Assembly (NCBI GenBank): GCA_022510525.1
Contig: JAFLTH010000005.1
Span: 4,754-66,527 of the forward strand
DNA length: 61,774 nucleotides
Direction of reading: 5' to 3'
Origin: Lachnospiraceae bacterium
Lineage (GTDB): Bacteria; Bacillota; Clostridia; Lachnospirales; Lachnospiraceae
Under the pieces are notes generated by a model. It was not told where the DNA came from and searched no databases. It was given only the letters and a program-made list of their open reading frames with translations. The position numbers and the translations under genes are program-made. Shown here one piece after another: positions 11,292-33,225 of the stretch; positions within the stretch are counted from its first letter, which is position 1, and the number at the start of each line of letters is the position of its first letter.

Positions 11292-12737
11292 TCAACCAAT
11301 CAGCCAGTCATACATTTCCTGATATTTTTTAGCGGATACGTGCCATGAGAAATCTGCTGACATAGCACGGTCAACTATCTTATTCCATTCTCTCTTTTTA
11401 TCATAATATATTGATTCTGCATAACGAATCGTACTTAACATCTCGTGTGCATTATAATTCACAAAACTAAAGCCCGTACCGGTACTTTCATATTCGTTAT
11501 AAGGCTGAACGGTATCCTTCAGACCGCCTGTTTCACGCACAATCGGCACAGTTCCGTAACGAAGTGACATCAACTGGCTTAAACCGCAGGGTTCAAACAA
11601 CGACGGCATCAGGAATGCATCACTTGCCGCATATATCTTATGGGACAAAGCGTCTGAATAATAAATGTTGGCGGATACTTTACCATGATATTTCCAGTCA
11701 AAATGACGGAACATATTTTCATACTGTTCCTCACCGGTTCCAAGTGCAACAATCTGTACATTATCATTGCAAAGTTCATCCATAACATATGCTATTAAAT
11801 CGAAACCTTTTTGGCCGGTCAGTCTTGAGACAATACCTATCATCATTGTCTTGTCATCCTGTGTAAGACCAAGCTCAGCCTGCAGTGCACGCTTGTTTTT
11901 AATTTTTTCCTTGCGAAAATTCACTGCATTATAATTGAATTCTATATTTGAGTCTGTTTCAGGATTAAACTCTTCATAATCAATTCCGTTAACTATACCG
12001 CGCAGGTCGTTTGCTCTTGCACAAAGTAAGCCGTTCAGACCCTCACCGTAAAATGCTGTTTTAATTTCTTCAGCATATGTATCACTTACCGTTGTAATTG
12101 CGTCCGAATAAACCAGACCGCCTTTTAACAGGTTGGCATCCTTGTAAGCCTCCAGTTTGTCGGCTGTAAAGAAATAGTTCGGAAGTCCGGTAATCTCCTG
12201 TACCTCTTTAACTCCCCACTTACCCTGGAATTTCAGGTTATGTATAGTCATTACGGTCTTGATACCGCGATAAAACTCTCCGCCCTGGAATCTTTCTTTT
12301 AAATATACCGGAATAAGTCCTGTCTGCCAGTCGTGGCAGTGGATTAAATCGGGCTTGAAATCAATTACCGGAAGTATGGATAACGCAGCTTTACAGAAGT
12401 AAGCATATTTTTCAATCTCAAAGAGCGCATTATCGCCATATGGCTTAAATCCGTTAAAAAAAGATTCATTATCAACAAAATAGTATTTAATTCCGTCTAC
12501 CTCTGCCTCAAGAATACCCACATACTCATTTCTCCAATGAAAGTCCATATAAAAATGTGTCTTATATTGCAGCAGATCTTTCATCTTCTGTGACATACAG
12601 GTATATTTGGGAAGAATTACTCTTACATCAAAAAACTCCTTATCAATACATTTGGGCAGCGAACCGACAACATCAGCCAATCCGCCGGTTTTGATAAACG
12701 GAACACCCTCAGATGCAACAAATAAAATCTTCTTCAT
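11292..12737 (-). CDS. glgA: Glycogen synthase (ADP-glucose type, GT5)
   Basis: GlgA transfers glucose from ADP-glucose to growing glycogen. The start at 12737 gives 481 residues beginning MKKILFVASEGVPF. The ADP-glucose-binding KTGGL is at residues 16-20, and the C-terminal GT-B domain has FEPCGLSQL. An ATG five codons upstream lies inside the GGAGGG ribosome-binding site, so it was rejected. No other glycogen genes are adjacent. The neighbours are the spo0A remnant upstream and a flippase downstream. Confidence 0.95.
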   Translation of the reverse strand: MKKILFVASEGVPFIKTGGLADVVGSLPKCIDKEFFDVRVILPKYTCMSQKMKDLLQYKTHFYMDFHWRNEYVGILEAEVDGIKYYFVDNESFFNGFKPYGDNALFEIEKYAYFCKAALSILPVIDFKPDLIHCHDWQTGLIPVYLKERFQGGEFYRGIKTVMTIHNLKFQGKWGVKEVQEITGLPNYFFTADKLEAYKDANLLKGGLVYSDAITTVSDTYAEEIKTAFYGEGLNGLLCARANDLRGIVNGIDYEEFNPETDSNIEFNYNAVNFRKEKIKNKRALQAELGLTQDDKTMMIGIVSRLTGQKGFDLIAYVMDELCNDNVQIVALGTGEEQYENMFRHFDWKYHGKVSANIYYSDALSHKIYAASDAFLMPSLFEPCGLSQLMSLRYGTVPIVRETGGLKDTVQPYNEYESTGTGFSFVNYNAHEMLSTIRYAESIYYDKKREWNKIVDRAMSADFSWHVSAKKYQEMYDWLIG

Positions 12738-12837: not shown

Positions 12838-13362
12838 TCAATATAAATTACGGTACTGAAGACGTATTTTATCGGCAATCAGGGCAATAAACTCTGAATT
12901 TGTCGGCTTTCCTTTGCCGGTATTAATTGTGTATCCGAACAATGCATCCAGTGTTTCCATTTTGCCTCTTGACCATGCTACTTCAATGGCGTGTCTTATG
13001 GCACGCTCCACTCTGCTCGGAGTAGTCTGGTATTTGCCTGCAATCGTAGGGTACAAAATCTTGGTAATTGAGCCTAACATTTCGACATCCTCTACTGACA
13101 TCATAATTGCTTCGCGCAGATATTGATATCCTTTGATATGCGCAGGTACTCCTATTTCATGTATCATATTAGTGACGTCCCGCTCCAGATCATGTGTCGT
13201 ATCCGGCCTGGATGCTGCCTTTATTTCCTCAACATTATTATCGTTCCTGCTTGACGGCACCGTTATCATAATCTGAAATTCTTTGTCTCCATTCATCAGA
13301 TTATTCAGTATCTGATACACATTTTCGTTGTCTCTGGTTACAGTTAAATTTAATTGTTCCAT
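12838..13362 (-). CDS. spo0A: Spo0A with a truncated receiver domain
   Basis: Residues ~70-174 are an excellent Spo0A C-terminal effector domain: [47 protein letters not shown] and [14 protein letters not shown] are family hallmarks. The first ~35 residues ([18 protein letters not shown]) still resemble the start of a receiver domain. The rest, including the phosphoacceptor aspartate and the switch residues, is missing. The protein is 174 residues instead of about 260-270. The acidic pocket DD(N) has also become TRDN. The start is fixed by GGAGG six bases before ATG 13362. Only 154 bp separate it from spoIVB, too little to hide the missing ~90 codons. The location after spoIVB is the normal spo0A locus. 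Confidence 0.88.
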
Positions 13363-13416
13363 AGATATCCTCCAATCAGTTTCCCCATTATCCTGCAGAT
13401 TTCCCACAATTTTTTT

Positions 13417-13477
13417 AGGAAATAACAAGTTTCCTTTTATTTCCATTTTATGCTAGTAATATTATAAACAATGCTAG
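13417..13477 (-). promoter_or_regulatory. Inverted and direct repeats in front of spo0A
   Basis: The 154-bp gap between spoIVB and spo0A contains a perfect AGGAAA-7-TTTCCT palindrome (13417-13435). It also holds two ATGCTAG copies 21 bp apart (13450-13456 and 13471-13477) around an AT-rich TATAAT-like segment. These could be operator and promoter elements. No convincing 0A box or sigma-H promoter was seen. Confidence 0.35.
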
Positions 13478-13516
13478 GGTTCCATGGAATATTTAGGCAT
13501 CGCATTAAATTTTATG

Positions 13517-14788
13517 TTACTGCACCAGCATGTTCTCGATAAAAATGCCGTATCCGCTGGTGGCATCCTGCACAAGCACATGAGTAACCGCACCGACCAG
13601 CTTACCGTTTTGGATAATGGGGCTTCCGCTCATTCCCTGAATTATGCCGCCTGTGAGGGTTAAAAGTTCCTCGTCCGTAATTTTTATAACCAGACCTCTG
13701 TTAACATTGTCATTTTCAAGATGAAGTTCCTCAATTTCAATATCATAGAACTTAGGTTCGCCTGTGACAGAGCAGATGATTTTAGCCGGACCGGTTTCCA
13801 CCTCCTGTTTTAAGGCAATCGGAATTGGTTCATAGACTTTATTCGCTGCTATTTCCTCCCCACATATACCAAAGATTCCTTCCGGGGTGTTTTTGGTTAT
13901 CTCACCGATGACGTTATCGCTCTCATATTCAATATATCCGGTCAATTCGCCGGGAGAACCGTCTTTTCCTCTTGTAATTCCTATAATTTCGGTTTTATAT
14001 AAGGTTCCTTCCTCAAGCTGCATAAGCGTTGAAGTGTCTATATCATTAATTCCATGTCCGAGTGCCCCAAAGGTGTTATTTTCATCAATATATGTCAAAG
14101 TACCAATGCCCTGTGCATTGTCTCTGATCCATATACCAAGTTTCCATTCACCGTTTTGATTACTTTCAGGTTTTACTTTTACTTCGGTAATCTCTTCATT
14201 ACGGTTGATACTCATTATCATTTCTCCGCCTTCGGAAGTCTCTACCATTGAGATAAACTGCTTCTTATTTTCAACTTTTTCTCCATTTACATTAAGAATA
14301 TAGTCTCCGGCCTGAAGAATGTAGTTGGCAGGGGAAACCGTATCTCCGTTTTGATTTTTAAATTCTCCTATTCCGACAACCAAAACTCCCTCCGTCTTTA
14401 CATAGATTCCGATGGGAAGACCTGAGGGACTCAGCATTTTATCCTGAATAACCTGAATATCTACGCTTTTATACGGAAAAATCCCAAAAAGCTTCAAATT
14501 CATTATATAGTGGTCGATTTGATTTGCCTTGAGCGTTACTCCTTTTGTAAAGTCCACATGCAGGCTTTGTACCTGTGTGGAAAGACTTTCCACTGCCTCA
14601 CCCTGATATATTTCTCCGGAGGCCGGTACATGAAAATCCAGCTGCTGTTCCACCCCTGCACGTATTTTTATTGTAGATGGTACCTTTTTCCAGTAGTCCA
14701 TGTACACTGCCGTTAAAAGAGTCACAACGGATGCAGTAAGAAATATATATAAAAATCTGCGATAATTTTTTATTTTATATTCACTCAT
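13517..14788 (-). CDS. spoIVB: SpoIVB serine peptidase (S55 family)
   Basis: SpoIVB is secreted from the forespore and starts the signal that activates pro-sigma-K processing by cleaving SpoIVFA. The 423-residue protein has an N-terminal membrane anchor (about residues 12-28), a PDZ domain (about 130-200) and the S55 peptidase domain. That domain carries the conserved LGHGIND and the nucleophile motif GMSGSP (S387). Length is normal. It lies between recN and spo0A as in all spore formers. The terminator at 14821 separates it from recN, so it likely has its own promoter. Confidence 0.93.
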   Translation of the reverse strand: MSEYKIKNYRRFLYIFLTASVVTLLTAVYMDYWKKVPSTIKIRAGVEQQLDFHVPASGEIYQGEAVESLSTQVQSLHVDFTKGVTLKANQIDHYIMNLKLFGIFPYKSVDIQVIQDKMLSPSGLPIGIYVKTEGVLVVGIGEFKNQNGDTVSPANYILQAGDYILNVNGEKVENKKQFISMVETSEGGEMIMSINRNEEITEVKVKPESNQNGEWKLGIWIRDNAQGIGTLTYIDENNTFGALGHGINDIDTSTLMQLEEGTLYKTEIIGITRGKDGSPGELTGYIEYESDNVIGEITKNTPEGIFGICGEEIAANKVYEPIPIALKQEVETGPAKIICSVTGEPKFYDIEIEELHLENDNVNRGLVIKITDEELLTLTGGIIQGMSGSPIIQNGKLVGAVTHVLVQDATSGYGIFIENMLVQ

Positions 14789-33197: not shown

Positions 33198-33225
33198 AAT
33201 ATATGAAATGTTGTCCAAGTTATGA
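33198..33225 (-). promoter_or_regulatory. Candidate sigma-E promoter of the spoIIIA operon
   Basis: On the minus strand TCATAAC (33225-33219) and CATATATT (33205-33198) resemble sigma-E -35 and -10 elements with a 13-base spacer, one short of the usual. They lie about 20-45 bp before spoIIIAA, the operon being sigma-E dependent in Bacillus. The match is moderate. Confidence 0.4.

Follow-up and report, generated by a model that had tools for sequence, protein, structure and literature searches.

A native spo0A without most of its receiver domain in a Lachnospiraceae clade, probably kept as a phosphorylation-independent transcription factor

Constitutive alleles of Spo0A, namely Sad67 and effector-only constructs, are known from the laboratory in Bacillus subtilis. 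Passages of a 2024 review (PMC11210211) treat phosphorylation of the receiver domain as common to endospore formers. Response regulators without a phosphorylated aspartate are described in parts of PMC4395418, but those systems retain the receiver domain, most of which is gone from the Spo0A described here. In the literature that we searched, which was thin on subscription journals, we found no report of a natural native Spo0A that is receiver-less or truncated.

The window, a stretch of 61,774 nucleotides from a Lachnospiraceae assembly (GCA_022510525.1), holds a spo0A gene of this kind, and the same form is found in a clade of the family. Like the Spo0A of Bacillus and Clostridia that TIGR02875 describes, the clade's protein has the effector domain, is encoded at the locus seen in full-length relatives, and in 7 of the 11 truncated genomes examined goes with the same type of spoIIG promoter. 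Unlike it, the clade's protein has no receiver past about the first 31 residues and no phosphoacceptor, carries a new conserved motif, and has a promoter of its own that mostly lacks exact 0A boxes. As with Sad67 and the effector-only constructs, activity would be expected without phosphate, but the clade's form is natural, is kept across the clade and includes a conserved stub. The explanation that we think probable is that a clade of the Lachnospiraceae lost most of the receiver from its native spo0A once and kept the protein as a phosphorylation-independent transcription factor. The features of the locus are as follows.

12838..13362, reverse strand: receiver-less spo0A, 174 aa (ORF read, Pfam, TIGR02875)
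13362-13360, reverse strand: start codon of spo0A (ORF read)
13369..13373, reverse strand: ribosome binding site GGAGG (read from the sequence)
13252..13362, reverse strand: stub, residues 1-37 (profile comparison, conservation, dN/dS)
13192..13251, reverse strand: variable linker, residues 38-57 (dN/dS, pLDDT)
12850..13191, reverse strand: Spo0A effector (DNA-binding) domain, residues 58-171 (Pfam, solved structures, AlphaFold2)
13461..13466, reverse strand: presumed spo0A promoter, -10 element TATAAT (promoter pattern search)
13498..13503, reverse strand: GCGATG element at a fixed distance upstream of the -10 (promoter pattern search)
13517..14788, reverse strand: spoIVB, native neighbor (TIGR02860, 374 bits, cut-off 305)
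11292..12737, reverse strand: glgA, native neighbor and source of the tree (profile match and neighborhood comparison)

The effector domain is complete and highly conserved, as a preliminary description of this DNA had stated: Spo0A_C (PF08769) matches residues 63-166 (E = 2.7e-46) over family positions 1-104 of 104, residues 58-171 align with 1FC3 and 1LQ1, two structures of Spo0A effector domains, and dN/dS is 0.007 in 40 close pairs that are not independent of each other. AlphaFold2 models this domain mostly with confidence (block pLDDT values of 87-97, dropping to 67-68 at residues 131-150). The receiver family gave no Pfam match in the 174-aa protein at E values up to 10, and besides Spo0A_C there were two weak matches to unrelated families. 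TIGR02875 was passed with 207.3 bits against a cut-off of 200, yet over profile positions 134-259 of 262 only.

The preliminary description had also put the remaining receiver at about 35 residues with the phosphoacceptor gone, which agrees with what we found, namely the first 31 to 37 residues or so and no Asp56. In local mode, hhalign pairs residues 1-31 of the stub with the same positions of the receiver (probability 94.7, E = 6e-8), and this homologous part corresponds to beta1-alpha1-beta2 of the receiver; residues 32-44 align to the receiver in global mode only (probability 80.9, E = 1.5e-6). The receiver is missing from about residue 38 onward, Asp56 included; in 92 distinct full-length frames, the column of Asp56 shows no other residue, gaps aside. 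The alpha4-beta5-alpha5 region is the dimerisation face of receivers, and the truncated rows inspected have no residues in that stretch. The 174-aa protein lacks both the receiver domain with its phosphoacceptor aspartate and the dimerisation face of receiver-family response regulators.

The locus is the native one, again as proposed earlier, because spo0A-glgA, often together with spoIVB, is common to truncated and full-length loci in the neighborhood comparison. The gap between spoIVB and spo0A is 154 bp, which is too small for the missing part, just as the preliminary description had argued, and the neighbors found are the known ones, so a receiver gene beside spo0A is not supported. A longer start at 13446 was ruled out, since the relatives that we read have ME[QT]L as their common start, whereas the extension is not shared.

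The short gene could in principle be an assembly collapse, or a duplicate with an intact spo0A elsewhere, and the preliminary description had raised both. The window's own genome is 98.6% complete, and its assembly, which is 5.1% contaminated and split into 189 contigs, leaves some room for such an error. However, the short form also occurs in 72 further genomes of the genus and, within the family sample, in 10 genera (among the matches listed), and no full-length Spo0A was found in the window's own genome, where the other Spo0A_C match is a 125-aa receiver-less paralogue. We therefore treat an artefact or a duplicate as a practically negligible explanation. The paralogue (L002, G000:C138) is one of the small proteins that consist of Spo0A_C alone and are encoded close to glycan genes. 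Like the native protein, it is an effector without a receiver, but it lies at another locus, is 52% identical to the native Spo0A of its own genome and has no stub. Its gene has a putative glycosyltransferase gene on one side and, on the other, one that is putatively mannose-1-phosphate guanylyltransferase-like. A second Spo0A_C match of this kind is present in 74 of the 77 genomes of the genus (among the matches listed), and the neighbors were read for L002 only.

Within the genus, 73/77 genomes have a short-form Spo0A, in frames of 175-227 aa (among the matches listed; a stop is reported inside some of the short matches, and it is the gene end in those that we read, which are part of the 73). 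In the same search, and again among the matches listed, the short form of G058 is split over two frames, and three genomes that are 66-86% complete have the small paralogue only. We also searched a family sample of 130 genomes from 129 genera, taking E = 3.3e-43 or better as a strong Spo0A_C match. Among the matches listed, 11 genomes from 10 genera have a strong match in a short frame, 72 have one in a frame of at least 260 aa, and 47 have no match that strong. An order-wide search gave best scores that fit the short form in five more candidate genera of the family (g24, g29, g44, g57, g75) and, outside the family, in g159 and one g17 genome; all of these are candidates by score. Most of the named records are titled as MAGs. 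G494, the sole genome of its genus, has a short spo0A with an in-frame stop. Its spo0A (L175) and its spoIIE (C78:8437-9333) both contain an in-frame TAG, so that these may be pseudogenes, errors or cases of recoding.

The preliminary description had left two alternatives, a Spo0A driven without phosphorelay control or a decaying remnant after the loss of sporulation. Two loci with disrupted copies, the in-frame stop in G494 and the frameshift in G058, fit decay, but the dN/dS values of 0.007 for the effector and 0.053 for the stub (same close pairs), the retention of the short form in 73/77 genomes of the genus (among the matches listed) and the sporulation genes, which are mostly kept, speak against it. 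We consider decay very improbable, and of the two alternatives it is control without the phosphorelay that is supported.

On a tree of GlgA, the product of the neighboring gene, 31 truncated loci fall on one side of a branch and 71 full-length loci on the other (quick search, SH-aLRT 99); the tree took 31 of the 73 truncated rows with GlgA, and the short-form genus g263 (L155), which has no GlgA in its locus, is unplaced. A second GlgA tree, under a mixture model, places 21 truncated and two disrupted rows in one set (99). The truncated form is thus one group on the neighbor-gene tree, and as part of our favored explanation the receiver was probably lost once, long ago.

Other departures from the usual gene were also seen. 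In a Roseburia-labelled MAG (L124:3583-4197), beta1 to beta3 are kept and the rest of the receiver is gone, with E at the phosphoacceptor position by manual alignment. L124 lies outside the truncated group on the tree, so that it is not supported as an intermediate; from its sequence, it is a separate partial loss of the receiver in a single MAG. In L139, spo0A is present as a tandem pair whose receivers are divergent, with N at the phosphoacceptor position of the first copy, and G496, G523 and G551 have close pairs of Spo0A_C matches. L183 (G520:C8) and L182 (G301:C5) are extra receiver-reduced Spo0A genes beside a full-length copy in the same genome. Frames that fit neither form, such as L097, L124, L182 and L183, entered no count. 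The truncated set used below has 74 distinct sequences, leaving out L177 (unknown residues), L175 and L176 (both disrupted) and duplicates, and the full-length set has 93 (92 without duplicates), some of them from outside the Lachnospiraceae.

The stub of the truncated proteins is under a constraint of its own. In the 40 close, non-independent pairs, dN/dS is 0.010 for residues 27-37 and 0.053 for stub residues 2-37, compared with 0.446 for the linker. When gaps are ignored, residues 27-37 have a mean pairwise identity of 0.888 among truncated and 0.416 among full-length proteins, and the effector has 0.928 and 0.806, respectively. Residues 27-37 thus form an 11-residue motif with almost effector-level conservation, whereas full-length Spo0A varies in the corresponding region. 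At position 10, 70/74 truncated proteins have R or K (the window's own has R), and 52/57 full-length rows with a residue at this place have D. D11 is invariant in the truncated proteins, where the most conserved stub residues are D11, L22, I31 and I33, followed by F29, T34, V35 and P36; full-length receivers conserve other residues in this region, with D10, D11 and N12 leading. We take this shift in conservation as a sign of new function. Synonymous sites vary about as much in the stub (pS 0.351) as in the effector (0.377), so the constraint acts at the protein level and a constraint on the nucleic acid is unlikely. Judging by these comparisons, the 37 leftover residues are a newly constrained element and not inert; the preliminary description missed this, as it did the spread over at least 10 genera.

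The stub may be a new association or docking element, and it might form a shared sheet in a dimer. AlphaFold2 gives the stub a pLDDT of 53-65, with a low-confidence helix at residues 12-24 as its sole structure, and the linker a pLDDT below 50 at residues 36-54; because there is no confident fold, dimerisation through the stub has no structural support. Alternatively, a partner, which might be a stand-alone receiver or else a kinase, could dock on the stub motif and supply the control that the lost receiver once gave. This would fit the newly conserved motif, which is no longer part of the local alignment to the receiver beyond residue 31 and is constrained at the protein level, but a neighborhood comparison with the window's genes, which covers the locus only, found no shared extra gene beside spo0A. 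Six of 59 candidates for a stand-alone receiver of the Spo0A type were scored, and a separate receiver protein may yet act in trans. We see this partner as possible, though rather unlikely.

The promoter of spo0A differs between the two sets in counts that come from related, non-independent sequences and whose expected values are plain base shuffles. Exact 0A boxes occur in the 250 bp before spo0A at 7/74 truncated loci (1.9 expected) and at 64/93 full-length loci (2.4 expected). With a looser box in the same 250 bp the counts are 27/74 (9.0 expected) and 74/93 (10.2 expected), so that autoregulation may persist in part of the truncated loci. GCGATR at a fixed distance from the -10 is found in 59 of the 74 truncated promoters (0.17 expected), leaving 15 where this layout is absent, and in 11 of the 93 full-length promoters (0.18 expected). 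In some full-length relatives a 0A box lies beside GCGATR, 29-33 bp before the -10, and TGTCGA[AT] stands right before GCGAT in 9/93 full-length and 0/74 truncated promoters. The composite of TGTCGAA directly before GCGATR, at the fixed distance from the -10, was observed in full-length relatives such as L108, L112, L118 and L133. Based on these counts, it seems that the autoregulatory DNA was mostly lost along with the receiver and that an older promoter element stayed.

In B. subtilis, the -35 of the spoIIG promoter overlaps 0A boxes and is followed by an unusually long spacer. A search for TT[CTG]GACA before TATAAT or TAAAAT found this layout, as TTtGACA or TTcGACA, a 21-22 bp spacer and TATAAT, in 7/11 truncated genomes including the window's own (spacer of 21 bp in six and 22 bp in one; 0.01 expected) and, always with 21 bp, in 15/29 other genomes (0.03 expected), although G480, G482 and G517 among these 29 come from genomes without a native Spo0A in the family listing. 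These counts, too, come from related sequences and are compared with base shuffles. The layout as searched is absent in 4/11 truncated genomes. Since the Spo0A type of spoIIG promoter is kept in most of them, the receiver-less protein probably still works there.

The situation at spoIIE is different in the window's genus. The first half of B. subtilis SpoIIE holds the membrane part, and throughout the genus SpoIIE lacks this half (for example G000:C24:4136-5158 in L197 and L353, and L193-L222), with matches above 200 bits starting at profile positions 413-427 of 764. This truncation also occurs with full-length Spo0A, so it is not a strict companion of the Spo0A truncation. Among the best-scoring 30 of the 77 genus loci, the TTGACA/0A layout was found at spoIIE in none, and CATATA[TA]T was found in all 30, with an upstream partner in 28. 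The window genome's own spoIIE promoter resembles the stretch before spoIIIAA near position 33205 of the window, and in model species the spoIIIA genes are under sigma-E control, so that spoIIE may now be sigma-E dependent in this genus. In five other truncated genera (L337, L338, L339, L343, L345), the TTTGACA-TATAAT type is kept at spoIIE, as judged by eye.

Sporulation genes are mostly kept, and spore formation itself would be a prediction from gene content. Of the SpoIIIA proteins encoded in the window, SpoIIIAA passes its cut-off, SpoIIIAB, AD, AE, AF and AG match with scores under theirs, and no profile match was obtained for the ORF where SpoIIIAH would lie. All 11 short-Spo0A genomes of the family sample match the C-terminal half of SpoIIE (the G494 copy with its in-frame stop), SpoIIGA, and SpoIIAA, the last always below the curated cut-off. 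It could nonetheless be that sporulation has been lost or is rare, and that Spo0A is kept for surface polysaccharide or stationary-phase genes. This would fit the spoIIE genes without a 0A-type promoter in the window's genus, the lack of a SpoIVA match in 6/77 genus genomes (the 39 best assemblies include two of the six) and of a SASP match in G545, the only such case among the 11 family genomes. A gene-content predictor reported in a section of PMC12536801 called 24 Lachnospirales MAGs non-sporulating, an Acetatifactor MAG among them, which points the same way, and three short-form records (L071, L074, L076) are titled Acetatifactor sp. Against it, the C-terminal half of SpoIIE is matched with 199 bits or more in 72/77 genomes of the genus (none over the full-length curated cut-off), SpoIVA is over its cut-off in 71/77 and SpoIVB in 72/77, and the spoIIG layout is kept in the seven truncated genomes mentioned above. 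We regard a Spo0A kept for such other genes as unlikely.

Returning to the phosphorylation-independent transcription factor that we favor, its effector domain would be active without phosphate, so its activity would follow the amount of protein. That amount would be set at the spo0A promoter, with GCGATG and TATAAT replacing the kinases and the 0A-box feedback, and the stub with its conserved motif might, as a weaker part of the proposal, replace phosphate-driven dimerisation or dock a partner. Timing by protein amount is plausible in view of PMC4689505, whose abstract speaks of a gradual increase of Spo0A~P in the context of sporulation. As a broader and only tentative picture, a large clade of gut Lachnospiraceae could be natural spore formers without Spo0A phosphorylation, in which the 37-residue receiver remnant would be a constitutive self-association or docking element, the decision to sporulate would have moved to the transcription of spo0A, and the early cascade would have been rewired, in the window's genus with a membrane-less SpoIIE behind a sigma-E-like promoter.

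Predictors of the type presented in the relevant part of PMC8340488 take the presence of spo0A and a signature score as the mark of spore formers, and our results concern them, since the presence of spo0A says nothing about the presence of its receiver. The clade appears to challenge the rule that Spo0A must be phosphorylated and, having sporulation genes and no phosphorylation site, it offers a natural experiment on the need for phosphorylation. It also bears on how entry into spore formation may be timed by transcription and on how a domain fragment may gain a new function.
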